From the IMG/VR virus record IMGVR_UViG_3300003873_000064, positions 1 through 23,749 of that record: a stretch of 23,749 bases of DNA; one strand, given 5' to 3'. Positions 1 through 23,280 of this stretch are shown here, in pieces (position 1 is the first letter of the stretch; each line of letters opens with the position of its first letter). The notes beneath the pieces are model-generated. The model worked only from the letters and a program-made list of their open reading frames with translations. It searched no databases and was not told the DNA's origin. A program made the translations under genes and the position numbers. The stretch comes from a virus.

Positions 1-1426
1 GTTTATCGTATTGGTATTTGTAATTTGCACAAGCGACCAAGAACATATTATTCATGTTAGCTGAGCCGTTTTTACGCCAATTAATCAAGTTACCCACAGC
101 GATTGCTGCTTTTTGTCCAACGACATCGCCATAATTAGCACCAATGAATCCGATGCAATCTGAGCGTGTTGTGCACAAGTTCGTTGCTGAAACACCAGCA
201 TCTAGTTCATTTGCAATAACAATATCAATATCCAACTGTTCTTTATTAGAAAACAAGTCGTATGCCAAAAGCAAATCATCTGTTTGAATTGGTGAATCTG
301 TGCCTTGTGACATTACCATGACGCCAGGATTGGTCGCTACCAAAGCAGCAGCATTTACAGCAGCTGTAACGGTAACAGCGCCACCAACCACAGTATCATT
401 AGCACCCATAACAGCGACATAATCTTGAATGGTTGTAGCATTAGCGGTATTATCTTTGCAGTACACGTACTGAGACAATGAATTAATAACATCTTCGATG
501 TATTTCGATTTATTATTGTGGTCTTTTGCATTGATATTAAAATCACCAATCCACGTTTCCACAATTACGCCATTTTCGCGGATGATCACGCCGACTTCAG
601 TACCGATTGGCGCATATTCAAACAACCCGTCCAATGGAATACCAGGAAAAGCTTCGGTTGGAACTGTTAATCCGAACGCAGTCGGTGTAGCGATTGCTGT
701 TTCGATGTTGTTTGCCCATGCACCAGGGTTACGAGCAATCAATTTCAATTTAGATGTTGCTGAACTAAACGCAATTGATAATTCTTTGGCGAGATAATCT
801 GAATCGTTTTCCACCAACATATTATTTGCAAACAACAATGTTGGAGTAATAGCTAAACCAGAACTAACAGCTTCGACCAATGAGTTCATAACTCGTTGAA
901 CTGTATAAATTTTTGCGCCTGCTGGGATAGCAACACTCACAGGAGAACTCAATGTGATTGTTCCAACAGCAGAAGCACTTACGCGGTATACATTATTCAT
1001 GTCCGCACCAGCACCAACGGTCGTTTCGAATGCAACTGCTGTAACATTTGCTGTAAACACTGTAGAATTCGTTACCGCGATAGCAGCGATTGAACCAACT
1101 GCTGCTGCCGTTGCTCCTACTACAACAGGAACGACTCCAGCAACTGCTGGCGTTGCAAGACCGTTTGAGTTAGCTGCGCGTGCAACTAGTAATTTATTAC
1201 CATAGTTTAAGAAATTATATGCTTGATAGAAGTCATTATAATTGAAGTTTGTTGGATTACCATAAAAGTTAATCAACTCAGCGACAGTTGTAATGAGCGT
1301 GTACGCTCCAACTGGGCCTTTTACAAAATCACCACCAAATACACCAACGCTTGAAGACACGGTTGGTACAATTGTAGATGCGTTAATTTCGGTGACAAAT
1401 ACACCTGGGCTTAACATTTCAGCCAT
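1..1426 (-). CDS. 18: Tail sheath protein (gp18-like), C-terminus beyond window
   Basis: About 475 residues are visible; the gene runs off the left edge (T4 gp18 has 659). The N-terminus MAEMLSPGVFVTEI matches the LLSPGV start of T4-like sheath proteins, followed by a GxFGGDFVKGPVG segment and YQAYNFLNYGNKLLVARA, which parallels T4 MNFLQYGNDLRVVRA. The last visible residues, NYKYQYDK, match the NYKYQYDKY of the gp18 core. The protein forms the contractile sheath around the tail tube and drives DNA delivery. The start at 1426 is set by AGGAG 6 nt upstream. An exact late promoter lies about 200 bp upstream (1623-1630), as expected for a virion gene. Family identity rests on remembered motifs, not on a search. 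Confidence 0.93.
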   Translation of the reverse strand, partial: MAEMLSPGVFVTEINASTIVPTVSSSVGVFGGDFVKGPVGAYTLITTVAELINFYGNPTNFNYNDFYQAYNFLNYGNKLLVARAANSNGLATPAVAGVVPVVVGATAAAVGSIAAIAVTNSTVFTANVTAVAFETTVGAGADMNNVYRVSASAVGTITLSSPVSVAIPAGAKIYTVQRVMNSLVEAVSSGLAITPTLLFANNMLVENDSDYLAKELSIAFSSATSKLKLIARNPGAWANNIETAIATPTAFGLTVPTEAFPGIPLDGLFEYAPIGTEVGVIIRENGVIVETWIGDFNINAKDHNNKSKYIEDVINSLSQYVYCKDNTANATTIQDYVAVMGANDTVVGGAVTVTAAVNAAALVATNPGVMVMSQGTDSPIQTDDLLLAYDLFSNKEQLDIDIVIANELDAGVSATNLCTTRSDCIGFIGANYGDVVGQKAAIAVGNLINWRKNGSANMNNMFLVACANYKYQYDK

Positions 1427-2676: not shown

Positions 2677-2712
2677 TCACAGATTTTCTTTTAAAAAGTT
2701 TTTGAAACTCAT
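2677..2712 (-). CDS. Eleven-residue ORF MSFKNFLKENL with strong ribosome site
   Basis: ATG is preceded by AGGAG at good spacing; the frame is MSFKNFLKENL then TGA. It is the last frame before the terminator. The sequence resembles the capsid-targeting-like N-termini of late genes elsewhere in the window (FRxYL..E) and contains an L-x-E triplet. It may be the leftover 5' end of a deleted gene, or a real micropeptide. The ribosome site is the main support. Confidence 0.35.
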   Translation of the reverse strand: MSFKNFLKENL

Positions 2713-2738: not shown

Positions 2739-3131
2739 TTATGCTTTAACGACACCAATGTTATTAACAACCGAATTCGTTGCAATTTGGTATTTCTCAG
2801 TGCCTGTCATTCTCGATAGCGTTGATACACCGAATGTACACACATCGGAATCTAACATGGTTCGTAACGACTCACCTGCTTGTGTATCATGAATTGTAAC
2901 GGTTGCAGTCATTTGACCATCATTTATTTGAAGTTCTGACACAGTATGCGAAATCTTCGATGGTTCCTTTTTGGTCTTTTCGATGTCTGATTCATATAAT
3001 GTACACATCATTGGAGATTTGTTTTCATTAAAATCGTCGACTAATGATTTGAGCGTATCTGTTGAATATATAACGTTATTCGCGTTTGGGACATCACCTT
3101 TTGGTAATTGAATGTTTAATTGTTCAGACAT
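2739..3131 (-). CDS. Prohead-protease-like fold protein, probably inactive (130 aa)
   Basis: The order of segments resembles the T4 gp21-type prohead protease core: NVIYSTDTLKSLVDDFNEN (compare NGxIYPxxxLxxxVxxYN), MMCTLYESD (compare G.LDHPE), KISHTVSEL (compare VSHII.EL), TATVTIHDTQAGESLRTML (compare G.A.IL.TPxG..+..LL) and TFGVSTLSR (compare GVSSRG). The His of the LDHP motif is replaced by Tyr here, though a Ser remains in GVS. Its 130 residues are shorter than gp21 (212). The start MSEQLNIQLPKG follows the upstream stop as TAGTATG, so it is translationally coupled. This fold assignment is inference; it may be a structural relative rather than an enzyme. Confidence 0.55.
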   Translation of the reverse strand: MSEQLNIQLPKGDVPNANNVIYSTDTLKSLVDDFNENKSPMMCTLYESDIEKTKKEPSKISHTVSELQINDGQMTATVTIHDTQAGESLRTMLDSDVCTFGVSTLSRMTGTEKYQIATNSVVNNIGVVKA

Positions 3132-5598: not shown

Positions 5599-5885
5599 TT
5601 GTTGTCCTTCCTTTAATGCGTGTTTGTGCGTTTTTATAACAGTTTCGATTGTTTATGACTCTCAATTTCGAGTAATAAATGTCGCAAACCATCGTAGCGT
5701 ACTCTATTGACTCTTTGAATTTCTGGTGTTCTTGAATCGTGTATGATGATTCGCCAAACCAACCTTCTGAAGGATCTGCGAGGCGAACTGCTCTCATTGC
5801 GCAACTTCTTACATTGTTAAGTCGCTGTGCACTTAACGATTCAAGAACACCTTTTGTTAATCGTACATGTATTTTTTTTACTCAT
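5585..5885 (-). pseudogene. Small gene with A8-run frameshift near its start
   Basis: The stop of the RNA ligase and an ATG overlap as ATGA (5882-5885), the usual start arrangement here. From that ATG the frame is MSKK, then an A8 run (5872-5879), after which it stops after 14 codons. One base fewer in the run would open a frame MSKKIHVRLTKGVLESL continuing without break through RAVRLADPSEGWFGE to the stop at 5585, about 99 residues. The shorter frame from the internal ATG at 5797 (70 aa) lacks a ribosome site. The gene may be broken, rescued by transcriptional slippage on A8, or affected by a base-calling error. Function unknown. Confidence 0.6.
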
Positions 5886-6904
5886 ACTTCATCCGTTTTC
5901 CGGAACCAAAAAGGTCGGGCTGCATTCGAAATAGCACCACCAACATCTTTTGCACACAATCCATTACCAGTAAGAACATCAAGTTCTTCACTAAGGATAT
6001 CTGAGTATACCCATCTTAAATAATCTGCTGTGCTTTTTCTTGTAATTGGTAACCCGCGTTCCTTGAGAACTTCGATTCCTTGTTCCAATCGTTGTTGTGT
6101 AACAGTCATTTCAACGAATTCGTGCACGGTATTGATTTTTTCAATATCTACAGCAGCAAGTGTTTTAACTTTTGAAACACTGTGCAAACGCCCTTTAACT
6201 TTGAATTTGAATTCGCTTGAAGTGTCTTCTGCATTATGCCAAACAATACCTTCCCCGGTTCCTGACACATTGAAGAACTTGCCAACTGGGCATTCCTTTT
6301 CAACCATTTCGGTATATTCTGCAAGTTTTTGTTGAGCAAGTTCGGGTCGATTAAAATCGATGTCAATCGAAAACGATGGGAACTGATTGATATAAAACAC
6401 GCTATGTTCGTTCAGTTTATCAAAATATTTGCTGTTGCTTGAAATTGCTTCTTCGTATGACGATTTAATATCGATGAATTTGCCGGTACTTAAATCTTTA
6501 ACAGCAAAAATAACAAACATTTTATCGAGTTCGTTAATTGCGACATTTTTCTGGATTCCTTTTCCACAGTATTCGCCAAACACCGCAATATTTTTCAGAG
6601 AATCTGATAATAATTCCTTGGGCAATCCAGCAACAAATGCGGCAAATCCAGCATTATCGTTTTGAACTGTGATAATACGAGAACGGCTTTGTACATGAAT
6701 TTTACCATCTTCATCGAAAACGATTGCAGCGTTGGTTCCATGGAGTTTTACAGTACCGTTGAATCGGATAATAGGATAATCCTTATTGTGTTCATAAATG
6801 GCTTTGCCGGCTGCATCAAGACCTTTAAAGTCACATGTTGATTTAACGTGTTTTACGACGTCTCGGTATTGTCTAATCTTAGGGAATTTAATAAATTCTG
6901 TCAT
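5882..6904 (-). CDS. RNA ligase, Rnl2-type nucleotidyltransferase fold (340 aa)
   Basis: All core motifs of the covalent nucleotidyltransferase superfamily are visible: motif I KLHGTN with the lysine to be adenylylated at about K53, motif III FGEYCGKGIQ (about 109-118), motif IV GEGIVWH (about 217-223) and motif V KFKVKG (about 233-238). The KxHGTN form and the 340-residue length fit the RNA_ligase family of T4 Rnl2 (gp24.1, 334 aa), which seals 3'-OH/5'-PO4 nicks in RNA and helps repair RNA damaged by host defence nucleases. ATG at 6904 has AGGAG upstream. It follows a BspA-like gene by 19 nt, so it is probably expressed early from 7473-7501. Substrate specificity is not deducible. Confidence 0.92.
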   Translation of the reverse strand: MTEFIKFPKIRQYRDVVKHVKSTCDFKGLDAAGKAIYEHNKDYPIIRFNGTVKLHGTNAAIVFDEDGKIHVQSRSRIITVQNDNAGFAAFVAGLPKELLSDSLKNIAVFGEYCGKGIQKNVAINELDKMFVIFAVKDLSTGKFIDIKSSYEEAISSNSKYFDKLNEHSVFYINQFPSFSIDIDFNRPELAQQKLAEYTEMVEKECPVGKFFNVSGTGEGIVWHNAEDTSSEFKFKVKGRLHSVSKVKTLAAVDIEKINTVHEFVEMTVTQQRLEQGIEVLKERGLPITRKSTADYLRWVYSDILSEELDVLTGNGLCAKDVGGAISNAARPFWFRKTDEV

Positions 6905-6923: not shown

Positions 6924-7442
6924 TCAAGCTGATTGAGAAGTTTGGTTCATTTGAACGTTTGAAAGTTTAAACATATTCCACGTATCTGCGTTGTTAGGAA
7001 TGTTGAATTCAGGAACTGCCAATGACAAGCATCCACAAAGCATGCTGCTCATGTTTTTCACTTTTACAGTACAGAATTCTGGAACATTGACCAGTGATTG
7101 GCAATCACAAAACATCCGTGACATATTGTCAACTTTTGAAGTATCAAAACATGGTACTGATTTTAATGCATGACAACCATAAAACATAACACTCATATCA
7201 GTCACTTTCGACGTATCGAATTTTGGCACGACTGTTAATGATTCACAGAATTCAAACATTCCGGTCATACAAACAACATTCGATGTGTCAAGTTCAGGCA
7301 CGGTTTTTAATAATTTCGCACCAGTTAGTAAATAACGCATATCAGTAACATGTGAATAATCGTAATTGTCATTTAAATCCTTAGTACTGATTCCTGACAA
7401 AATAAGTTCGCGTAATTCTCTTTTCAAAATAACCTGTTTCAT
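6924..7442 (-). CDS. BspA-like (DUF285) repeat protein, shorter copy
   Basis: 172 residues. It starts MKQVILKRELRELILSGIST and then shows about five 23-residue repeats of the type FDTSKVTDMSVMFYGCHALK, the DUF285/BspA-like leucine-rich repeat. The C-terminal repeat is degenerate. There is no signal peptide, so it is cytoplasmic or carried by another route. The start at 7442 is chosen because GGAG lies 7 nt upstream (GGAGATTGATATG). It has its own early promoter. It is a tandem paralogue of the next upstream gene, with which it shares the N-terminal 30 residues closely. Such repeats mediate protein binding in bacteria and protists; the target here is unknown. Confidence 0.88.
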   Translation of the reverse strand: MKQVILKRELRELILSGISTKDLNDNYDYSHVTDMRYLLTGAKLLKTVPELDTSNVVCMTGMFEFCESLTVVPKFDTSKVTDMSVMFYGCHALKSVPCFDTSKVDNMSRMFCDCQSLVNVPEFCTVKVKNMSSMLCGCLSLAVPEFNIPNNADTWNMFKLSNVQMNQTSQSA

Positions 7443-7472
7443 ATCAATCTCCTTCAACGTTTCAATACGATA

Positions 7473-7501
7473 ATTATATACTAAACAAAGCGAGTTGTCA
7501 A
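7473..7501 (-). promoter_or_regulatory. Early sigma70-type promoter before short BspA-like gene
   Basis: Minus strand TTGACA (7496-7501), 17-bp spacer, TATAAT (7473-7478): consensus in both boxes. Downstream block TATCGTATTGAAACGTTG and GGAGATTGAT are shared with other early units. The -35 box touches the 3' end of the upstream BspA-like gene. Confidence 0.9.
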
Positions 7502-7506
7502 CAACT

Positions 7507-8238
7507 TTAAATGTATACTTCTGGATACTGTTCTTTTAAATAATCGTTATCCAAAACAGAAAAATCATAATCTTTAAAATTGTGAACATCTATATTTTCT
7601 AATGAAGAACAAAGTTCGAACGCCCGGTGCATATTAGTCACGTTCTTCGTATCGAATTTGGGTACAGATCTTAATGATTTGCATCCATAAAACATACCGC
7701 CCATACCAGTTACTTTTGATGTATCGAATAATGGTACAGCTTCTAACGAAGAACAAAGTTCGAACGCCCGGTGCATATTGGGTACATTTGATGTATCGAA
7801 TAACGGTACAGATTCTAATGATGTGCAATTTCTAAACATACCACGCATGTCGGTTACATTGGATGTATCAAAAAGCGGTACAGACTTTAATGATTTGCAA
7901 TTACTGAACATCCGGCTCATATTAGTTACTTTTGATGTACAGAATAATGACACAGATTCCAATGATGAACAATTTTCAAACATCCTGTGCATATCTGTTA
8001 CATTTGATGTACAGAATAATGGTGCAGATTCCAATGATGAACAATTTTCAAACATCTTATTCATATTAGTTACTTTTGATGTATCGAATAACGGTACAGA
8101 TTTTAATGATGAACTGTTTTCGAACATTTGAGACATGTCAGTAATACCAGAATAATCATAGTTTTCATTCAAATCATCGGTACTGATTTCAGCTAAAACA
8201 AGGTCCCGCAATTCGTTTTTCAAGATAATCTGTTTCAT
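7507..8238 (-). CDS. BspA-like (DUF285) repeat protein, long copy (243 aa)
   Basis: Starts MKQIILKNELRDLVLAEIST and carries eight tandem repeats of about 23 residues with the signature LFDTSKVTNM..MFENCSSLE (69 bp per unit, with high identity at DNA level). The C-terminus is an SSLENIDVHNFKDY helix and DYLKEQYPEVYI. No signal peptide or membrane segment is present. ATG at 8238 follows GGAGATTGAT, as in the paralogue at 7442. The near-identical DNA repeats make repeat-number change by recombination likely. BspA-like repeats are known protein-interaction surfaces; in a phage, roles such as host-factor binding are inference. Confidence 0.9.
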   Translation of the reverse strand: MKQIILKNELRDLVLAEISTDDLNENYDYSGITDMSQMFENSSSLKSVPLFDTSKVTNMNKMFENCSSLESAPLFCTSNVTDMHRMFENCSSLESVSLFCTSKVTNMSRMFSNCKSLKSVPLFDTSNVTDMRGMFRNCTSLESVPLFDTSNVPNMHRAFELCSSLEAVPLFDTSKVTGMGGMFYGCKSLRSVPKFDTKNVTNMHRAFELCSSLENIDVHNFKDYDFSVLDNDYLKEQYPEVYI

Positions 8239-9966: not shown

Positions 9967-9995
9967 ATTATATACTAAAATAATCAGTTTGTCAA
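9967..9995 (-). promoter_or_regulatory. Early sigma70-type promoter for coiled-coil gene
   Basis: Minus strand TTGACA (9990-9995), 17-bp spacer, TATAAT (9967-9972), then the shared TGCCGTATTGAAACGTTG block. The -35 box overlaps the last codons of the upstream late gene. Confidence 0.88.
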
Positions 9996-10342
9996 CGGGT
10001 TTGTTCCCACGTAATCAAGCTATTCATGGCTTCTTCTGATATGTTTGGTACAGCATGCTTGATGTAATTTTCTGCTTGTTCTTTTGATACGAAACGTTTT
10101 CTGAACCAGCGATCTTCGTTTTCTAAATCTTCAACAAAATAAGTTCTCATTGTTCCTTCAATGACATCACATTGACTAATCGGTTTCAAATGTTTTTTAT
10201 CATATTGTTTATTAAACGAACTAAGATAATCGAAGTTTCGTTTAACGCTAAATAGTGAAGTGTCAACGGAAGCAACATCTCCCGCTGACGTAGTTTCTTT
10301 AATGTTTTGCAAGTACTCTCTAAACCCCGATTTAAAACTCAT
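9992..10342 (-). CDS. Hypothetical late protein with capsid-targeting-like N-terminus (116 aa)
   Basis: Starts MSFKSGFREYLQNIKE, an amphipathic stretch with I-K-E, then a polar body (DTSLFSVKRNFDYLSS, EDRWFRKRFVSKEQAENYI). The N-terminus is very like those of the next two upstream genes, and the I-x-E triplet fits the T4 prohead protease cleavage rule (after L/I-x-E). ATG at 10342 overlaps the end of the 474-aa gene by 11 nt. It is the last gene of the late operon. A packaged or injected protein is plausible by analogy; its function is unknown. Confidence 0.7.
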   Translation of the reverse strand: MSFKSGFREYLQNIKETTSAGDVASVDTSLFSVKRNFDYLSSFNKQYDKKHLKPISQCDVIEGTMRTYFVEDLENEDRWFRKRFVSKEQAENYIKHAVPNISEEAMNSLITWEQTR

Positions 10343-11756
10343 ATGATATATCTGCCTTGGCTGTTTGACCAAATGTTTTAAGTAAAACAGTAAAGCTCGA
10401 TTTGATTTTATCAATAATCTTCTTAACCCAAGATTTTACGAAACTTAATAGTTTGTTTCCCATGAGTTTAACTTTATCTAAAATGCCTTCATTTAGTTCA
10501 TATTCGTTGAGGCATTCGATAAAAGTTTCTTCTAATAACGAGTCATTCAACAAATCACTTTGAGATTCTCTAACTACTCCTTTCATTGCTACCCAAGCAT
10601 CACCATCAGATGCTTTAAACGAGATATCGAATCTTGTTTTGTTTGCTACATTTGAAACGAATGCAGGATCAATTTTTTGAACTTTGCTATCACCGATTTC
10701 ATTGAATACCATCAAGTAATCTGCTTTTGAATCGTAATCCGAAAATTTATTATCCCCAGTCATAGCTTCTTTAACTATTGAAGATTTGAACTCTGAACTT
10801 GAAGTCAGCTTGCGTAACGCTGTACTCATTTCATTATTCTTTCTGATTTGCTTATCAATATCGTTAATTAACTTTGATTTCTTGCCAGCCTTAATGTCTT
10901 TCTTAATATCATTAATTGTACCGATCTTAGTATAACGTTTAAATGATTCCGAAATTTCGTCGGTCAATTCGTCAAATGCTGACTGGAACACGTCATTTTT
11001 AACATAATCGGGAGTATTAGCGAATGCAAATGCAAGAGTGGCTAATGATTCAGCTTTACCACCAGACATTAATTGAGAACCACCTTCCTTTTTAAGACTA
11101 TAGTGGATATTTTTTGAATAAAAGTCAGTCTTTGGTGTTTTTGTGGCTGATTTAGCTGGTTTGCCAGTCATATCAATAAAATATTGTTCCCATTCTGATG
11201 TCAATCTTGAGGAACCTGAACCGTAATGAACAAACTTGGAATTATCAATCGTGTGCAAGTTTTTAGCAATGTCGTAACCACCCAAATCTAACAAGTTATC
11301 CAATTTTTCTGCCCAACTTACTTGACCCATTTTAATTGCGGCTTCTTTAGTTGAATCAAATTCTAACATGTTGTGTGCAACAACAATAACTTTTTCCCAA
11401 TCAGCTGCTGTGATATTCGATCCAGCATTCCCTGATTTTTTAGAACTAATAAACCGGATGGTACAACTATCAAATTTAATCGTTACTTTCCCAGATTTGT
11501 AGTCAGCATTGAAGTAGTTGACAATCTTTTTAATGTTTAGCTCGTCCGTTTTAACCTGAATATTATACATTGTATTCGGTGTATACTTCGGAGTGCTCCC
11601 ATAAAACGTAGACGTGTTAATTTTTGCTTTTTTTAGTGCATCAATAACATCTTTAGGGTATTGCTTAGTTGCTTCTTTGAAGTCCAAAATAAATCTAGGA
11701 CCAGAACTGCCTTTCGCTTCGCCTAAAATGTTTAAATAATCTCTGAAATTACGCAT
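10332..11756 (-). CDS. Large hypothetical late protein with capsid-targeting-like N-terminus (474 aa)
   Basis: Starts MRNFRDYLNILGEAKGSSG, containing L-G-E/A, a fit to the L-x-E cleavage rule. The start at 11756 is chosen because GGAG is 5 nt upstream and because it overlaps the upstream stop by 8 nt. The middle has NIHYSLKKEGGSQLMSGG, a SxK-x4-GSQL pattern that recalls restriction-type nuclease cores but is too weak to name. The last 60 residues are amphipathic and basic (KLLSFVKSWVKKIIDKIKSS), possibly membrane- or DNA-binding. It lies between the ligase fusion and another motif-bearing gene in a late operon, so a virion-carried protein is a reasonable inference. Confidence 0.75.
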   Translation of the reverse strand: MRNFRDYLNILGEAKGSSGPRFILDFKEATKQYPKDVIDALKKAKINTSTFYGSTPKYTPNTMYNIQVKTDELNIKKIVNYFNADYKSGKVTIKFDSCTIRFISSKKSGNAGSNITAADWEKVIVVAHNMLEFDSTKEAAIKMGQVSWAEKLDNLLDLGGYDIAKNLHTIDNSKFVHYGSGSSRLTSEWEQYFIDMTGKPAKSATKTPKTDFYSKNIHYSLKKEGGSQLMSGGKAESLATLAFAFANTPDYVKNDVFQSAFDELTDEISESFKRYTKIGTINDIKKDIKAGKKSKLINDIDKQIRKNNEMSTALRKLTSSSEFKSSIVKEAMTGDNKFSDYDSKADYLMVFNEIGDSKVQKIDPAFVSNVANKTRFDISFKASDGDAWVAMKGVVRESQSDLLNDSLLEETFIECLNEYELNEGILDKVKLMGNKLLSFVKSWVKKIIDKIKSSFTVLLKTFGQTAKADISYEF

Positions 11757-13269
11757 AAGTGCTCCGGATTTCTTCGTACATCGAATGTATTTCTTTTGGT
11801 GTACTTGCTTTAAAATATTTTTCGTCGTTAATGTTTTCGATAACTTTAGATGCGGATATATCGGTATCCACACGCGGCATTTCTTTAACGGATGTACCAA
11901 CCATTTTCTTTAACAGTTCGCGATAGGATTGAACTCTATCAGACCCAGCATATACAACATTAATGTTTACTGGTGACTTGCCAAAAATTCGAATTAAGTT
12001 GCCATTCGAACTGTGAATAATGTCAGTACCTGGGAATGTTTTCTTTAACATCTTTTCACGCAGTTCTTTTGTGTCTTTTGTGTCTTTAGAGGTAACTAAA
12101 TCAATTACAACGTTATCATATAATTTTAATGCACGTTTGATCATTTTAACGTGTCCGTCTTTGGTCAATACTCTAAATTTGCCCAAAATCAACGCGTTAT
12201 TATTGCCTTTCATTGATTTGATTAATAAATTTTTCGCGTTTAATTGAATGTCGTCTTTGATGATTGCTGGTGTTTTCTTTGAATGCGCAAATGTTAATTT
12301 GTACCTACGCAAATCTAATGACAATTCATCAAGTACGTCATCAAGCGAACGGCTTTTCACAGTAATACTATCAGCTAATTCTCTTGCGACTGCTTTAACG
12401 TTGTCCCAATATGCGGTTTCTACAATCGGATTGGTTTCGCGATATTTTAGCTTAATTGCCAACCGTGCGGTCTGGTCCAATTGATAATCTTGTTGAAATT
12501 TTAACAGTTTATCTTCATAAGAAATCACAACGCCTTCTTCTTTTCCACCATATTTCGAATCGATGCGCAAAAATAATTGACGAATATCGTCTAACAGAAT
12601 TTCAGGTGTTCTCCAATTCATTGACCGTTTTGCTGTAGTGAATTCTTTGTTGAGAGCATTGTGTTTGATACCAGCACTAAACGATTGTTCATTACCAAGA
12701 ACCCCATCAAATAATACTACTGGCACATCAATTTTTAATTCGCTAGCATACGAATCGCGATTAACGATGTTGAACCCAGAATTAGATGTTTTCAATTTGC
12801 CGAATTTCGTAGTATACGATGATTTAGAATGACCGATTAGAACCATTTTGTGTGTTTTTGTATAATTAGAACTCAATGTTGGTTTATTCATTAAGTACTC
12901 AATGAATAATTCAGTGCCGATTGGTACGTTGTTTTTAGGTAACTGGCTGAAGTGCTTTAGAACTAATTTAAACTGTGATGCACCAATTGATTCAGACTTA
13001 ACTTTCGTATCTGGCTGATAATTGTATTCCTTAGAATACAGTATGTTACCTTTATACGCAATAATGTAATCAGATAATTTTCCATCATTTGCTTGTTTAA
13101 TGATAGTTAATTTCACGCCATCAGTTTTTTGAGTTACATGAACATTAGCTCCCAAGAATTCAGTAATTCGTTTTTCTGATGTAAGGTATTTTCCCGCAGC
13201 TTGAATAGAAATATCGAGTTGTTCTTTTGCTTCATTAATGAATGACCTGAAGTTTACATTTGCGTTCAT
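11749..13269 (-). CDS. ATP-dependent ligase domain fused to a nucleotide adenylyltransferase-like domain (506 aa)
   Basis: Residues 1-16 (MNANVNFRSFINEAKE) resemble a capsid-targeting sequence with I-N-E/A. Residues about 45-280 show ligase superfamily motifs: KTDG (K48, adenylylated lysine), GTELFIEYL (118-126), EEGVVISY (244-251) and AIKLKY (271-276). Residues about 355-480 show an HIGH-type nucleotidyltransferase: LILGKFRVLTKDGHVKMI (360-377, GxFxxxxxGH) and ISASKV (471-476), like NMN or cytidylyl transferases. The two could link nucleic acid sealing to nucleotide or NAD-type chemistry. The gene starts with ATG inside the end of the HNH gene (35-nt overlap). Ligase substrate (DNA or RNA) is not deducible. 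Confidence 0.82.
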   Translation of the reverse strand: MNANVNFRSFINEAKEQLDISIQAAGKYLTSEKRITEFLGANVHVTQKTDGVKLTIIKQANDGKLSDYIIAYKGNILYSKEYNYQPDTKVKSESIGASQFKLVLKHFSQLPKNNVPIGTELFIEYLMNKPTLSSNYTKTHKMVLIGHSKSSYTTKFGKLKTSNSGFNIVNRDSYASELKIDVPVVLFDGVLGNEQSFSAGIKHNALNKEFTTAKRSMNWRTPEILLDDIRQLFLRIDSKYGGKEEGVVISYEDKLLKFQQDYQLDQTARLAIKLKYRETNPIVETAYWDNVKAVARELADSITVKSRSLDDVLDELSLDLRRYKLTFAHSKKTPAIIKDDIQLNAKNLLIKSMKGNNNALILGKFRVLTKDGHVKMIKRALKLYDNVVIDLVTSKDTKDTKELREKMLKKTFPGTDIIHSSNGNLIRIFGKSPVNINVVYAGSDRVQSYRELLKKMVGTSVKEMPRVDTDISASKVIENINDEKYFKASTPKEIHSMYEEIRSTYA

Positions 13270-14623: not shown

Positions 14624-15832
14624 TTAAAATCCGTATGATTCCAATAATGACCTAAACGACTCACGTACACGGCCGCGTTGACCATATTTCGCGTAGTATT
14701 CGTTGACTTGTTTTTCTGATTTATCTGGCAACCCGAATTCTTTAATAAAACGTTGGTACCCAGCATTTTTAACTTGGAAATCCAATTCAGCATTGTCTAC
14801 TTCGAGTTCCTGACCACGGGCACCTTTTGTTCCCCACAATAATTCTATATAACGGTCATGAGTATCCTTAATCTGAGATTTCGTTAAATATTCTTTCATT
14901 AAATCCAATACACCAACGAATGAATCAAATTTCTTAATGTCTTTAGGATGAGAATCCAATCTACCGAATGCTAGTTTATAAATGTTTTCAATTACAGTTT
15001 CGAAAGAACTGTTTTTACTAGGAATTTCTTTATATACTTGTTTGCCGTCAATTGTGATAACATTGCCATCGTGGTCAAACATTGGTTCATATGCAATTCG
15101 GATTCCACGGACAACTGAAAACTTCAACATTCGCGGTAATGCGTGTACTTTTGATTTTGATAACGTGATTTTTTCAGGTGTGCTTTTACCAGTAGCGATA
15201 ACAATATCATCTCGAACTGACGCACCGCCAACTAAAGCGCGGATTAAGAATTTATGGTTTACGGCTTTTACACCGGCACGTGCATCTTCAAATGATGAGC
15301 TATGACTGAATTTTGCCCATGCTGTTGGATGGGAATCCTCAAATGGTAAAAACTCAAAATCAACTTGACAATATGCAACAGTTCCATTCTCAAAATGAAC
15401 AACAATAACAGAATTGATTTGGTCACCAATAGATGATTTAGTGTGTTTGTTTGAACCGAAATAAGTCGCGCCAGGAATAATCTCTTGGCCTTCAATCGAG
15501 TCTAAGTAATCCCACATATCATCTTTTAATGATTCTTCCACAGTAATGTCCAAATCGCCGGCTGATGGTTTGTACTTAATAATATCAGAATCTGAATAAT
15601 CTGGATTCATGATAAATGATGTACTGCCATTAAACGCAATACCGTTTGCGAGAATCTTCTCATCGACCCAAATCTTTCTATGATACTTTGATTCAAATGA
15701 TTTGTTCATCTTCTTAAAGATTGCTACAAATGTTTTAACGAACTCTTGCCGGCCAATTGCTCGCAAATCGATCTTTTCTGCTCTGGCTGTTTCGCCAGTG
15801 CGCTTGTTAGTTGCTGTTACATTTCCACCGAT
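14624..15832 (-). CDS. Nucleotidyltransferase-fold late protein, apparent ATC start (402 aa)
   Basis: The Pol-beta-type signature is clear: FNGSTSFIM, then AGDLDITVEE with the DxD pair, and a third acidic site in YCQVDFEFLP. A TTG at 15766 is a possible start, but upstream residues (I)GGNVTATNKRTGETARAEK stay open and look like the GGNV opening I recall for phage relatives. AGGAG (15840-15844) lies 7 nt before ATC (15832), and an exact late promoter lies just upstream (15864-15871), so I prefer ATC; no ATG, GTG or TTG fits. The C-terminus is RVRESFRSLLESYGF, which resembles the capsid-targeting-like motif. It heads the late operon. The nucleotide and acceptor are unknown. Confidence 0.75.
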   Translation of the reverse strand: MGGNVTATNKRTGETARAEKIDLRAIGRQEFVKTFVAIFKKMNKSFESKYHRKIWVDEKILANGIAFNGSTSFIMNPDYSDSDIIKYKPSAGDLDITVEESLKDDMWDYLDSIEGQEIIPGATYFGSNKHTKSSIGDQINSVIVVHFENGTVAYCQVDFEFLPFEDSHPTAWAKFSHSSSFEDARAGVKAVNHKFLIRALVGGASVRDDIVIATGKSTPEKITLSKSKVHALPRMLKFSVVRGIRIAYEPMFDHDGNVITIDGKQVYKEIPSKNSSFETVIENIYKLAFGRLDSHPKDIKKFDSFVGVLDLMKEYLTKSQIKDTHDRYIELLWGTKGARGQELEVDNAELDFQVKNAGYQRFIKEFGLPDKSEKQVNEYYAKYGQRGRVRESFRSLLESYGF

Positions 15833-15863: not shown

Positions 15864-15871
15864 TATTTATA
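15864..15871 (-). promoter_or_regulatory. T4-type late promoter (TATAAATA) for the 15832-9992 operon
   Basis: Reverse complement reads TATAAATA exactly, about 30 bp above the ATC start and 20 bp above AGGAG. It lies at the very 3' end of the upstream early Cys-rich gene and marks the boundary between early and late gene blocks. Confidence 0.75.
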
Positions 15872-18943: not shown

Positions 18944-19531
18944 ATGACAAAACAGACAGAAAAGAAGTTATCAGACATTTTTACTAAAGATGTAATAGAA
19001 GAACTTAAAACAGACAAATCGTTAATATCGTCGGAGTTGTTGTCAAAGATTCGTTCATACGGGAACAGTGGGAAGAAGTTAGCACTTGAAATTTTAGATA
19101 TAGAAAAAGATGAAGAACAGTACTATTTGGATGCGTTTGGTAACAGGATTTCGTGCAACGGCAATCGGTTATTGAAGAAACGGTTTACTAAAATAGACAT
19201 GGCAGACATTCATATTGACGAAATGAGAAAATGCAAGAATGACATTCATTACTTTAAAGAAAATTATATAAAAATCAAAACAAGACAAGGCGTGAATTTT
19301 CCTGACCTTCGTCCGTATCAAGATGATTTCATTAATGATATGGTTCCAGACGAAAACGAAGGCGTAATTGGTCTGATGGGTCGCCAATGCTGTACAGGTG
19401 CAACCATGTTAGATATTATTAAAGACGATACGCAAGCAACGATGACATTCGAGGATTTATTTAATGAATGCAAGAACGATAATAGTGCACTTACAAACTG
19501 TAATATCAATAAAACATTTGGTGATGAATAG
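18944..19531 (+). CDS. 17: Terminase large subunit, N-terminal part, fused to split intein 1 N-half
   Basis: Residues 1-148 are TerL extein: a charged N-terminus, then EMRKCKNDIHYFKENYIKIK and LRPYQDDFINDM, the adenine-binding region upstream of the P-loop in gp17 (compare T4 WKKCRDDIVYFAETYC and LRDYQRDML). The extein ends GLMGRQ, the first half of the Walker A motif; T4 reads SRQLGKT. The remaining 47 residues begin CCTGATMLDI, an intein block A (C-x-T-G-x-T), and end FGDE at TAG, followed in frame by TGA TGA. No strong ribosome site is seen at the ATG. The product must be joined by trans-splicing to the next ORF to form the packaging ATPase. Confidence 0.92.
   Translation: MTKQTEKKLSDIFTKDVIEELKTDKSLISSELLSKIRSYGNSGKKLALEILDIEKDEEQYYLDAFGNRISCNGNRLLKKRFTKIDMADIHIDEMRKCKNDIHYFKENYIKIKTRQGVNFPDLRPYQDDFINDMVPDENEGVIGLMGRQCCTGATMLDIIKDDTQATMTFEDLFNECKNDNSALTNCNINKTFGDE
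19388..19528 (+). other. Split intein 1, N-terminal half (47 aa)
   Basis: Starts at the first Cys of QCCTGAT; this choice makes GRQ + SGKT equal in length to T4 SRQLGKT and aligns C-x-T-G-x-T with the other two inteins here (CLSGNS, CVTGTS). Only block A is present; block B lies on the next ORF, so the split point is between A and B. Confidence 0.88.
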
Positions 19532-19540
19532 TGATGAATA
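19521..19540 (+). repeat. 10-bp tandem repeat at the intein 1 break
   Basis: GTGATGAATA twice in a row, supplying the stops TAG TGA TGA at the end of the first terL ORF. The two terL ORFs lie in the same reading frame across it. Confidence 0.85.
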
Positions 19541-19555
19541 GTAATGAAGGATTTT

Positions 19556-19927
19556 ATGAAACTTCAGAAACTGTCTAAATTAACAACAAGAAAATTTATT
19601 GAATCTTACCCTGGTAATGGCAGAAAAATAAGAACGCCAACTGGATATGTAGAAATTCTCGAAGTCCATAAAACTGTACCATATAAAAAATGCAAAGTTT
19701 CTCTAGCAAATGGTTTGGTACTTGAGTGCGCGCATAACCATGTAGTGATTGACGAATGCGGAAACGAACATTACGCATGTAACTCCGGTAATGCAGTACT
19801 TCAAACCGTGTATGGCAACTCAAGTGTTAAAAGCGTTGAAGATTTGAACGTTGAAGAATCAATGTTCGATATTTCCATTGATTCTACTGAAGAAGTTTAT
19901 TACAGTAATGGTGTTTTGAGTCACAAT
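19556..19927 (+). other. Split intein 1, C-terminal half (124 aa)
   Basis: Contains block B-like ECAHNH (usual Thr replaced by Ala), block F-like MFDISIDSTEEVYYSNG and block G VLSHN; the +1 extein residue is Ser of SGKT. There is no endonuclease domain. Class 1 intein with C1, penultimate His and terminal Asn. Confidence 0.87.
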
Positions 19928-20290
19928 TCAGGCAAAACAATTTCCACTGGTATATATTTAACGCATTTATACAATTTTAATAAAGACATTAACATTGGTA
20001 TTGTTGCGAATAAGGGCCCAATGGCTCGAGAATTTTTAGCAAACGTTAAAAACATGTTTTCTGAATTACCTATATGGATGCAACAAGGTACTACAACGTG
20101 GAATAAAGGCTCAATCGAAAGTGAATCGATGACTAGGATATTAACAGACGTCCCAACTCAGGACGCTTTCAGGGGATTTACGATTTCTTGTCTTTCTGGA
20201 AATTCTGAAGTCAACGTATATGATAAGATAGATAAAAAATATAAAACAATTACTTTTGCAGAATTGTATGAAACATGCGATAAGGTTTAG
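19556..20290 (+). CDS. 17: Intein 1 C-half, TerL middle part (ATPase), intein 2 N-half
   Basis: Three parts in 244 residues. First, intein 1 C-half with block B-like LECAHNHVVI and the C-terminal block VLSHN. Second, 87 residues of TerL extein from SGKTISTGIYLTH (rest of Walker A) through GIVANKGPMAREFL and TTTWNKGSIESES to TQDAFRGFTIS, closely following T4 gp17 order (GILAHKGSM, EWNKGSIEL, PDAVRGNSF). Third, the 33-residue N-half of intein 2 from CLSGNSEVNV. Start 19556 is chosen over ATG 19544 because AAGGA lies right before it. A free fragment like this has no use without trans-splicing at both ends. Confidence 0.9.
   Translation: MKLQKLSKLTTRKFIESYPGNGRKIRTPTGYVEILEVHKTVPYKKCKVSLANGLVLECAHNHVVIDECGNEHYACNSGNAVLQTVYGNSSVKSVEDLNVEESMFDISIDSTEEVYYSNGVLSHNSGKTISTGIYLTHLYNFNKDINIGIVANKGPMAREFLANVKNMFSELPIWMQQGTTTWNKGSIESESMTRILTDVPTQDAFRGFTISCLSGNSEVNVYDKIDKKYKTITFAELYETCDKV
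20189..20287 (+). other. Split intein 2, N-terminal half (33 aa)
   Basis: CLSGNSEVNVYDKIDKKYKT to DKV and TAG. Block A only. Very short N-half, as in the atypical split intein AceL-TerL (25 residues by recall). Confidence 0.88.
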
Positions 20291-20294
20291 AAAC

Positions 20295-21434
20295 ATGAAA
20301 AATGATATAAAACAGTTTATAACCGATAATAACATATTAAATCCACCATATAATGCAAACGTGTCTCGTGAAAGGTTCTGGCAAAATGTAAACCCAGAAT
20401 GGCATAATTTTTTATTTACTAAATATAAAAAGTATAATGAAACGTATCCGATAAAATTTATTGATTTTTTAAAGTTATTCTTATTTGATGATAACAATGT
20501 GACTTATTATACTAGCGCACACGATTTTTTATTAAACACAAAACAAAGAAATATTAACATCGGTACAAAAAATTATAATTTATTTTTTGAAAATGCGAAG
20601 AAATTGTTTGATTTTGAACCAAGCGGTTTTAACGAAATGCGGTATTTAATTACGCATAATTTAAAAAAACCGCCAAAATGCAAAAACTGTGAGGCGTTAA
20701 CATCGTTTATTAATTTTAATCAAGGATACCGTTTATTTTGTTCACAACGGTGTCAAATGGATTATAACAACTCATTCAAAGAACCAAATTTAACAGATAA
20801 ACAAATTATTGAGCGTTTAAAAAAAATACCATTAGACAGACTAAATTTAACGAACAAACGTGTCGCTGACTATTACATTAACATATTAAACTTCACAAAA
20901 CATATACGTGATTTATCGGCAAAAGAAAGAATATATATATTTATTCAACGATTATCTGAAAATGACATATTATGTCCGCATTGTAAATCTCGCAAAAAAT
21001 TTAAAAGTCATGGGGTTGGTTACACAAACACTTGTTGTCGAACAACGTGCATTAACATGACGCGATATGGTGAAAAATTTTATAAAGAACATTCAATAAA
21101 TTTAAACACTTGTGCCGGCGGTAGCAGCTACAATTCTGGTTTTTTATATGTACTAAGAAGTGAAGATACAAAATCATACAAAATTGGTATATCTCAAAAC
21201 CCGATAACCAGACTAACGGATCTTAAAAAACATGTACCGGACCTAACTATAACAATATGTACATTTATCACCAATGGATTAACAAAGCTCGAAAAAACTC
21301 TTCACCATCGATTTTCGTCACAACGCGTTATATTTGATGATGCCAATGACATGGTTGATGGATACACGGAATATTTTCATTTGTCATGCGATGATTTAAG
21401 TGAAATAAGGAAAGTATTGTATGAAAATCAATAG
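20295..21434 (+). CDS. Free-standing GIY-YIG-type (MUG113/T5orf172-like) homing endonuclease inside split intein 2
   Basis: 379 residues. Zinc-finger-like modules occur at about 129-153 (CKNC...FNQGYRLFCSQRC) and 227-252 (CPHC...TNTCCRTTC), probable DNA-recognition parts. The C-terminal domain (about 282-350) reads GFLYVLRSEDTKSYKIGIS, then KLEKTLHHRF, with the YVL/KIG strands, Arg in ITRL and Glu of LEK, the pattern of MUG113/T5orf172 GIY-YIG nucleases. ATG at 20295 has AAGG 9 nt upstream and lies 4 nt after the stop of the middle terL ORF; its end overlaps the next terL ORF by 14 nt. It would cut intein-free terL alleles and spread the split intein. Codon use is more AT-rich than terL. Confidence 0.85.
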   Translation: MKNDIKQFITDNNILNPPYNANVSRERFWQNVNPEWHNFLFTKYKKYNETYPIKFIDFLKLFLFDDNNVTYYTSAHDFLLNTKQRNINIGTKNYNLFFENAKKLFDFEPSGFNEMRYLITHNLKKPPKCKNCEALTSFINFNQGYRLFCSQRCQMDYNNSFKEPNLTDKQIIERLKKIPLDRLNLTNKRVADYYINILNFTKHIRDLSAKERIYIFIQRLSENDILCPHCKSRKKFKSHGVGYTNTCCRTTCINMTRYGEKFYKEHSINLNTCAGGSSYNSGFLYVLRSEDTKSYKIGISQNPITRLTDLKKHVPDLTITICTFITNGLTKLEKTLHHRFSSQRVIFDDANDMVDGYTEYFHLSCDDLSEIRKVLYENQ

Positions 21435-21729
21435 TCGGTACTTAATTGAAACACCTGATGGATATAAAGATTTCGTTGGTATTAAAGAATCAATCAGTAC
21501 AGGTTTAGTTATTGAACATACCGGTGGGACAACTAAATGTACGAATGAACATTTAATACGCATCGATGACACAAAATTCGTGCAAGCAAACACATTACAA
21601 ACGGGTCAAAAAATTGGTGAACATGTCATTACAAAGATTACGTGTGACCATGAAAAAACAAAATATTATGATCCGGTGCATGTCGATGGAAAACATGAGT
21701 ATATCTCTGGGAACGTTGTTCACCATAAT
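21421..21729 (+). other. Split intein 2, C-terminal half (103 aa)
   Basis: MKINSRYLIETPDG, block B KCTNEHLIRI (T-x-x-H), block F YYDPVHVDGKHEYISGN, block G VVHHN, +1 residue Cys of CLVIDE. 33 + 103 residues make a complete mini-intein. Confidence 0.88.
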
Positions 21730-23280
21730 TGTCTAGTTATAGATGAATGTGCATTTATTAATCCAAACGTTTGGAAAGAATTTGCTGATTCGATTTTCCC
21801 ATCTCAGTCTGGTTTGTCTTGGAAAAAGAATATCATTTTAAGTACGTCAAAAGGAATGAACCATTTTTATGAACTCGTAAAAGGCGCAAGAGAAGATTCA
21901 AACGGATTCAAAGTATTTGAAGTAGATTGGAAAGATGTTCCTAGATATAAATCTGACGGTAGTTTGATGTCTAATGATGAGTTTAAGAATGGTATTGTTA
22001 AAAAACATGGAATGATTTACTTTAATCAGAATTATGGTTGCGTAACTGGTACAAGTGCTATAAACATTTATGATAACCGTATTAACGAATACTATGATAC
22101 CGAAATAGAAGAATTTGAACGAGCACTTAATTCCCAAAAAACGAACGGAGACAAACACGAAGTACAAAACAGATACAGCATTTTAACAAAACACGGGTAT
22201 TCGAAGTTTGATGGAATTATTGATACAGGTTATAACGATACATTGAAGTTTATTTTATCAAACGGTACAAATATCGAAGTAACAACGAATCACCGATTTG
22301 TTATTAACAACAAAGAGGTTCTAGCTAAAAATATTAAAATCGGTGATGTACTCGAGACAAAGAAACGCAACATCGAAACAATTGACATTATCGAAGGCAA
22401 ATCTAGAACTTATGATGTACTTGAGACAAACGACCACACGTACTATGCAAACGGTGTACTTAACCACAACTGTGAGTTTTTAGGTTCTTCAAATACGTTG
22501 ATTAGCGCAGAAAAATTAAAGAATATGGTACCAGCGGTTTGTGAAGAAATTCGAGATGGCAAATTAAACATTTATAAGTACCCGGAAGAGCACCGTAAAT
22601 ATATAATGACGATTGACGCAGCGAAAGATGGCAACGATTCATTCGCGATGCAAATTGTTGATATTACTGATTTTGAGATGGTGCAAGTCGCAACCGCGAA
22701 ATTACAAATCGATTATTTGTTAATGCCTGAGTTTATTTATGAATACGCTTTATTTTATAACAAACCATATTTAATTATTGAAAACAATGAAGGTGCCGGA
22801 CAATCAATCGCAGACCAATTATATCAAGATTATGATTACGACAACATTCATTTCGATAAAACATTAAATAAGCGGAAAACGTACCCTGGATTTAGAACAA
22901 CATCAAAAACAAGACGTCAGATTCTTCAAACAATGAAGCTGTTTATCGAAAACGATAAACTTGTGATTAATGATGGGCCGACAATAAGTGAATTCATGCA
23001 ATTTATACTATTAAACGGTAAATACCAAGCTGATTCCGGTAAACACGATGATTTGATTATGTCATTAGCTATGGTTTTTGTGCCTTTTTGTAATACTAAA
23101 AATTTTGAAGATATGAAACTTCTGATTAAAACACTATATAGCGATGTGGTTACGGAGGACGAACCGTTGAACCTAGCTGATATGCTAACAGTGTGTGCAT
23201 TCGATGATGGTACAGATTTCGAACAAGCGATAGATGATGAAACGAACAACCTGGATTTTAACAGCACTGAATTTTTCTAA
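21421..23280 (+). CDS. 17: Intein 2 C-half, TerL C-terminal part (ATPase end and nuclease) with cis-splicing intein 3
   Basis: 619 residues: intein 2 C-half (1-103), TerL extein (104-206) starting CLVIDECAFI (Walker B), with ILSTSKGMNHFYE (coupling motif), intein 3 (207-350), then TerL extein (351-619) from CEFLGSSNTLISA. The RNase H-type nuclease residues are all present: TIDAAKDGNDSF (Asp, T4 D401), YLIIENNEGAGQS (Glu, T4 E458) and KHDDLIMSLAM (Asp, T4 D542). The spliced TerL totals 148+87+103+269 = 607 residues against 610 for T4 gp17. ATG overlaps the endonuclease gene by 14 nt, with AAGGA upstream. Confidence 0.92.
   Translation: MKINSRYLIETPDGYKDFVGIKESISTGLVIEHTGGTTKCTNEHLIRIDDTKFVQANTLQTGQKIGEHVITKITCDHEKTKYYDPVHVDGKHEYISGNVVHHNCLVIDECAFINPNVWKEFADSIFPSQSGLSWKKNIILSTSKGMNHFYELVKGAREDSNGFKVFEVDWKDVPRYKSDGSLMSNDEFKNGIVKKHGMIYFNQNYGCVTGTSAINIYDNRINEYYDTEIEEFERALNSQKTNGDKHEVQNRYSILTKHGYSKFDGIIDTGYNDTLKFILSNGTNIEVTTNHRFVINNKEVLAKNIKIGDVLETKKRNIETIDIIEGKSRTYDVLETNDHTYYANGVLNHNCEFLGSSNTLISAEKLKNMVPAVCEEIRDGKLNIYKYPEEHRKYIMTIDAAKDGNDSFAMQIVDITDFEMVQVATAKLQIDYLLMPEFIYEYALFYNKPYLIIENNEGAGQSIADQLYQDYDYDNIHFDKTLNKRKTYPGFRTTSKTRRQILQTMKLFIENDKLVINDGPTISEFMQFILLNGKYQADSGKHDDLIMSLAMVFVPFCNTKNFEDMKLLIKTLYSDVVTEDEPLNLADMLTVCAFDDGTDFEQAIDDETNNLDFNSTEFF
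22039..22470 (+). other. Intein 3, contiguous mini-intein (144 aa)
   Basis: Block A CVTGTSAINIYD, block B VTTNHRFVIN, block F TYDVLETNDHTYYANG, block G VLNHN, +1 Cys of CEFLG. No endonuclease domain. Inserted between FNQNYG and CEFLGSS; T4 gp17 has the matching [20 protein letters not shown] without an insert. Confidence 0.92.

Follow-up and report, generated by a model that had tools for sequence, protein, structure and literature searches.

We analysed a viral DNA fragment of 23,749 bases (IMG/VR record IMGVR_UViG_3300003873_000064; the window, in what follows, is this whole fragment), in which 34 genes were scanned, and in particular three consecutive genes on its minus strand, P3, P2 and P1. 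They stand at the end of an operon that contains, in order, NT6 (nucleotidyltransferase-like), a small gene, a homing endonuclease, P3, P2 and P1. P3 (11749..13269) encodes 506 amino acids, P2 (10332..11756) 474 and P1 (9992..10342) 116. Each of the three proteins begins with a short stretch, here called the tag, that resembles the capsid-targeting sequence (CTS) of phage T4. The protein starts are MNANVNFRSFINEAKEQLDISI for P3 (ATG at 13269), MRNFRDYLNILGEAKG for P2 (ATG at 11756) and MSFKSGFREYLQNIKETTSAGD for P1 (ATG at 10342). The tag of P3 is MNANVNFRSFINE (13231..13269), with a cut expected before A (MNANVNFRSFINE↓A; the arrow marks proposed cuts throughout), and those of P2 and P1 are MRNFRDYLNILGE↓A (11718..11756) and MSFKSGFREYLQNIKE↓T (10295..10342), the latter with a displaced L/I-x-E. 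The tag sequence MNANVNFRSFINEA includes F7, F10 and E13.

T4's own record has MKTYQEFIAEA at the start of IPII and IPIII, as an earlier note on this DNA had correctly stated, MKTFKEFTSTTTPVSTITEA in IPI, MELITELFDE in Alt and MLKEQLIAEA in gp22. In IPIII, residues 4 and 7 serve targeting and residues 8 and 10 serve cleavage, and gp21 cleaves after L/I-x-E (PMC9026906). The tag of P3 equals MKTYQEFIAE↓A of IPII and IPIII in pattern and spacing, shifted three residues inward. P2 and P1 have F-R-(D/E)-Y-L with L/I-x-E further on, and T4 IPI is displaced likewise. Judged by sequence, P3 has the N-terminal tag of a T4-type CTS in full, and P2 and P1 have it with the L/I-x-E displaced.

A strict pattern, [FYW]xx[FYLIMW][LI]xE within the first 24 residues, was found in 3 of the 34 window genes (an 11-codon open reading frame (ORF), P2 and P3), compared with 0.12 expected from shuffled N-termini. 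A relaxed pattern that allows for displacement adds P1 (4 of 34, against 0.24 expected from shuffles); taken alone, the enrichment in the window is mildly optimistic, because the residue classes were chosen after the sequences had been seen. Among internal protein stretches, 0.6% match the tag pattern. The earlier note, which also proposed a motif search across the complete genome, had claimed shared N-termini on three consecutive late proteins, and all three are indeed present. Independent tests of the tag are given by homologues and by scans of sequence collections.

P3 (phrog_27149, 8e-123) consists of the tag, a ligase-like domain and a C-terminal domain of adenylyltransferase fold (about residues 355-506). 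It had been described in the earlier note as a ligase fusion. Foldseek matches the C-terminal domain to PPAT (E 1e-5) and also to NadM and NadR, phrog_3462 (NMNAT) matches at 4.5e-5, and the domain contains GKFRVLTKDGH (motif GKFxxxTxxGH), all of which points to a nucleotidylyltransferase (NMNAT/PPAT-like) fold. The ligase half, on the other hand, is seen at motif level only. KTDG near residue 48, EEGVV and LKFQQ follow the order of ligase motifs and are largely conserved, and at this level the N-terminal half is probably ligase-like; it has no Pfam match, and the structure model there is of low confidence. A PADLOC search with P1-P3 returned nothing.

P3 is 53% identical to its homologue in Vibrio phage Va1 and 43% to that in Campylobacter phage CP220 (over 96-97% of the protein), yet both homologues have untagged starts (MSKQHLDISI and MQKDQIDISI), in which the segment up to the E is missing. 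Tagged homologues are found in L009 (MNFETYLSE↓SRDQLDISI), L010 (MKKYSDLIFE↓AANKTKLDISI) and L011 (...ENILE↓AKMLDISI), and when the window protein is aligned with these three, the E of the tag does not vary. Read from such comparisons, the tag is an add-on on P3, which is present, different or missing while the domain stays conserved.

The contig nearest to the window, L009, has five unrelated tagged genes in a row: MKFVDFLNE↓K (265 amino acids with HELNH, metalloprotease-like by motif), MLNIKFKDFLIE↓S (a P-loop kinase, Pfam AAA_33), MRYKEYLSE↓S, MNFETYLSE↓S (the P3 homologue) and MMGFKKFLCE↓Q (phrog_12709). A sixth match, a thymidylate synthase, was counted as a false positive. On the L010 contig there are MKFKDYLNE↓K and MQKFSEYIQE↓G, the latter in two copies, of which the first lies 27 nucleotides downstream of the T4-type late promoter TATAAATA. 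In IMG/VR, MK-x-F-x-x-F-(L/F)-x-E-A matches at least 120 stretches, against 103 for a respaced control, and MKTFxxFLxEA at an ATG matches at least 120, against 7. Compared with the respaced control, the preference for the exact T4 spacing is strong. Among the matches listed, there are about 60 unrelated protein clusters, for example the cyanophage cytidylyltransferase (93 members), DUF6267, adenylate kinase, GNAT, HAD, methyltransferase, glucosaminidase and many unknowns. The tag is separable from its cargo, as it is common to unrelated proteins and homologues without it exist.

We compared the tag with published virion proteomes of cyanophages. T4-GC190, a cytidylyltransferase of S-SM1 that was found in its purified virions (PMC3037559), starts with MKKFSAFLNE↓A and is the sole convincing tag match among 225 genes. 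The NMNAT detected in S-SCSM1 virions (PMC9602691) starts with MKSFLQFLKE↓A, and the cytidylyltransferase detected in S-SZBM1 virions (PMC9146016) with MRFRQFIIE↓A. Among the 52 virion proteins of S-CREM2 (PMC10665884), the tag is found on a SAM hydrolase (MKDFDSFLEE), a kinase (MKRFDAFLTE), a cytidylyltransferase (MKNFSSFLTE↓A), gp13 (MKDLHSFLTE) and a Cas9-like protein (RFASFMAE↓A). The last of these is gp12 (L359:4705-7314), annotated as a Cas9-type endonuclease; its tag-like segment lies at about residues 19-25, which makes it a candidate for an injected Cas9-like protein.

Of the 215 S-CREM2 genes, four match the strict pattern, three of them virion genes (Fisher p 0.045; when non-structural virion proteins are set against non-virion genes, p 0.010). 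A looser pattern also matches four non-virion genes, and the match in gp102 was discarded as a false positive. Scanning both strands of the four cyanophage genomes with M-x-x-(F/Y)-x-x-(F/Y)-(L/F)-x-E gave 6 gene starts, 5 of which are virion-detected against a base rate of 17.5% (p about 8e-4); with the NMNAT family counted once, it is 3 of 4 (p 0.019). There was one extra match, inside the S-CREM2 nrdA gene. Since the same tag is found on enzymes inside purified virions of relatives, P1-P3 are probably carried in the virion too.

Behind its tag, P2 is a phrog_22045-family protein with TPKTD...SLK residues. Because its AlphaFold2 model is poor (mean pLDDT 42), it is by the D...S-L-K pattern only that P2 may be called nuclease-like. 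A homologue in Methylophilales phage Melnitz begins with MQGFKTFLSE↓A; a pattern scan of IMG/VR found no relatives of P2. P1 reads MSFKSGFREYLQNIKE↓TTSAGDVASVDT and belongs to a small protein family found also in Va1 and in L374 and L378. There was no tblastn match to P1 in the phage collection, and its relatives came from a motif search: MKFKKYLKSISE↓VTTSGDIATVDTKL in L374 and L378, and GFKKFLEEETVSGDIATVDTKL in Va1. The spacing in L374, MKFKKYLKSISE↓V, is as in P1.

The 11-codon ORF, MSFKNFLKENL (2677-2712, minus strand), has a ribosome-binding site and is followed by a terminator-like hairpin. NT6 of the window ends with VRESFRSLLESYGF (C-terminal ESFRSLLESYGF). The earlier note had seen the tag pattern in both; the two sequences are there, but they are only suggestive. 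C-termini resembling F-x-x-(F/L)-(L/I), as in ESFRSLLESYGF of the window NT6, are also seen in NT6 of L009 (ESFRGLLENITI), in NT6 of L010 (FANFINEFINR) and in L110 (KSFRDFLGDIYNSH). Similar C-termini occur in S-SCSM1 ORF93 (L358:8508-8717; RTFKEFLEYIE) and S-CREM2 gp12 (KTFRDFLN), both given as virion-detected in the reports cited above. Possibly, then, the targeting tag has a C-terminal form.

NT6 (phrog_19290; 14624..15832, minus strand), the first gene of the operon, has an apparent ATC start codon (15830-15832). Its homologues begin with ATG-GGC/GGT-GG.-AA., and the window has ATC at that codon, with a good ribosome-binding site before it; the ATC may be a rare start codon, or it may result from a mutation or an error in sequencing. 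The promoter TATAAATA (15864..15871, minus strand) lies 39 nucleotides upstream of the NT6 start. That a late promoter heads the operon, as had been claimed, agrees with this placement, which is shared with L009 (TATAAATA 31 nucleotides upstream of the NT6 homologue) and, in a similar arrangement, with L010. The window has 4 copies of TATAAATA and equally many of the reversed word, which served as control; the copy number is therefore no evidence. Among relatives, TATAAATA is often found 25-47 nucleotides upstream of late starts, and it is its position, not its number, that counts as evidence. From the position of the promoter, the P1-P3 operon is predicted to be transcribed late.

The window phage is T4-like, because it has a tail-sheath-like gene (1-1426, minus strand), a terminase large subunit (18944-23280, plus strand; interrupted by intein-like (Hint) domains and endonuclease-like ORFs) and T4-type late promoters. 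A Hint domain is also annotated in the terminase of CP220. Further features of the window are two adjoining proteins built of FDTSKVTNMSRMF-type repeats (6924-8238, minus strand; BspA/DUF285-like by eye) and an RNA ligase (5882-6904, minus strand; Pfam RNA_ligase 1e-14, phrog_548 6e-57). T4-like phages would have the scaffold and the major capsid protein between the protease and sheath genes, and no such genes were seen in the window. Between its protease-like gene and the sheath gene there is a long array of degenerate direct repeats (about 1660-2590). In the related Va1, where P3 has a homologue, there is a gp21 (Pfam 1e-25); several L/I-x-E sites (IIAE↓A, FLNE↓K) occur in the Va1 scaffold, and the major capsid protein has an L/I-x-E-type site (LVNE↓G). 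The window gene at 2739-3120 was considered as gp21 and is an uncertain candidate that we do not claim: it has a weak phrog_207 match, no Pfam (S77) or PDB match and no relative in five genomes.

We consider it quite probable that P3, P2 and P1 carry T4-type CTSs and are head cargo, cleaved in the manner of gp21 substrates and delivered with the DNA. The capsid-targeting interpretation, first put forward in the earlier note, gains support from the match with T4, the modularity of the tag, its spacing compared with the control and the virion proteomes of other phages. The first 10-16 residues of the three proteins would be a tag of the T4 kind (an aromatic residue, any two, an aromatic residue or L, L or I, any one, E), which late in infection would retain the protein bearing it inside the prohead core. 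Cleavage after the E would fall to a prohead protease of the gp21 type, and the mature ligase-like/adenylyltransferase fusion, phrog_22045 protein and small protein would remain with the packaged DNA and pass with it into the next host. By analogy, the window phage would package, cleave and inject these proteins, and the enzymes would act at the start of infection. The likeliest role for P3 and the other cargo would be early chemistry on nucleotides, NAD or nucleic-acid ends as the DNA enters, perhaps to counter defences that deplete NAD or cut nucleic acids.

Several points weigh against this interpretation. The catalytic His (of GELNHP) is not seen in the protease-like protein of the window, and an active gp21 encoded there is not convincing. 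The proposed cleavage sites of P1 and P2 are displaced (as in T4 IPI), which makes them the weaker part, and the conservation of the P1 family runs past the proposed cut, through GD(I/V)A(T/S)VDT. For S-CREM2 by itself, Fisher's test gives a modest result, and the NMNAT cases, being one family, are not independent. The tagged SSZBM1_191 is not among the S-SZBM1 virion proteins in the available part of that report. For such proteins, the cyanophage authors weigh carriage or contamination (PMC9602691 among them), and the parts of their reports available name no targeting signal.

Potentially, the shared N-terminus could bind another late structure (tail, baseplate, membrane or portal) and stay uncleaved, its likeness to the T4 CTS being convergent. 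The tag is short and resembles an amphipathic helix, whole-virion proteomics, as reported, does not tell head from tail, and in CP220 two tagged genes adjoin a baseplate gene. We still regard this as improbable: the L/I-x-E followed by A/S/K/T is retained where the tag ends, and a protease site is the best explanation for this; FLNE↓K is present in the scaffold of Va1 as well, and the untagged homologues are without the whole segment up to the E. That the three starts are alike by coincidence or gene duplication is very improbable indeed. The motif is short and degenerate and does produce false positives (the L009 thymidylate synthase and S-CREM2 gp102), but P1, P2 and P3 belong to different families or none, and neither the five tagged genes in a row in L009, nor the tag on about 60 unrelated clusters among the matches listed, nor the at least 120 matches against 7 in the respaced control would be expected by chance or common descent.

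A narrower doubt concerns P1, which may be an ordinary small late protein, similar in its N-terminus for another reason, while the tags of P3 and P2 are real. Its displaced site and the family's conservation beyond the proposed cut speak for this; on the other hand, the L374 and Va1 relatives retain F-x-x-(Y/F)-L and L/I-x-E, and the displaced site is known from T4 IPI too. We think it unlikely, though less so than the two preceding explanations, and prefer to see all three proteins as targeted to the capsid.

The mechanism is, by analogy, the one already known as the T4 CTS, with P1-P3 as added members. IPI, IPII, IPIII and Alt of T4 are like the window proteins in N-terminal pattern, spacing and L/I-x-E cut site, and in being unrelated proteins with one tag. 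Alt is an ADP-ribosyltransferase. The T4 internal proteins are small and inhibit type IV restriction enzymes (PMC12373910). Unlike these and Alt, P3 is a ligase-like/adenylyltransferase fusion, and neighbouring genes in relatives are kinase-like and metalloprotease-like. In cyanophages, GC190 (phrog_395; cytidylyltransferase/NMNAT), GC71 (phrog_455) and GC1453 (phrog_22045) provide an adenylyltransferase, a KxDG ligase-like protein and a phrog_22045 protein that are encoded together, as in the window. The genes for the KxDG protein (GC71; DUF6267 in relatives) and for the adenylyltransferase lie next to each other, beside a phrog_22045 member, and both match the long profile phrog_455. Like P3, the cyanophage adenylyltransferase is tagged, and it is reported from virions. 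Unlike GC190 and GC71, the two domains of the window are in one protein (PHROG 27149); we do not claim that the fusion was derived from the GC71/DUF6267 and adenylyltransferase pair, as a profile comparison with GC71/DUF6267 shows no homology. Head proteins of phiKZ and SPN3US have N-terminal propeptides that are cut by the prohead protease and are thought to target them into the head (PMC5694885); these are much longer than the window tags, and phiKZ cut sites are of the S/A-x-E type.

In T-even phages, the signal sequence has already served to find genes for internal proteins (PMC12373910). What appears to be unreported in the open-access papers searched is the breadth of tagged enzymes and their agreement with virion proteomes. 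Several cyanophage papers left cargo versus contamination open for virion NMNAT-like enzymes, kinases and a Cas9-like protein, and the T4-type tag on these proteins supplies a mechanism. The chances are about even that the tag, including its C-terminal version, is in wide use among T4-like phages of marine and environmental hosts as a portable address for enzymes (adenylyltransferases, ligase-like proteins, kinases, SAM hydrolase and a Cas9-like protein), and that the window operon is a dedicated, swappable cargo locus for a nucleic-acid/NAD-related enzyme set. If so, the operon would deliver this set at the moment of infection. From sequence alone, the tag motif may allow head cargo to be predicted in many uncultured T4-like phages, and with it one can directly test which enzymes phages inject.

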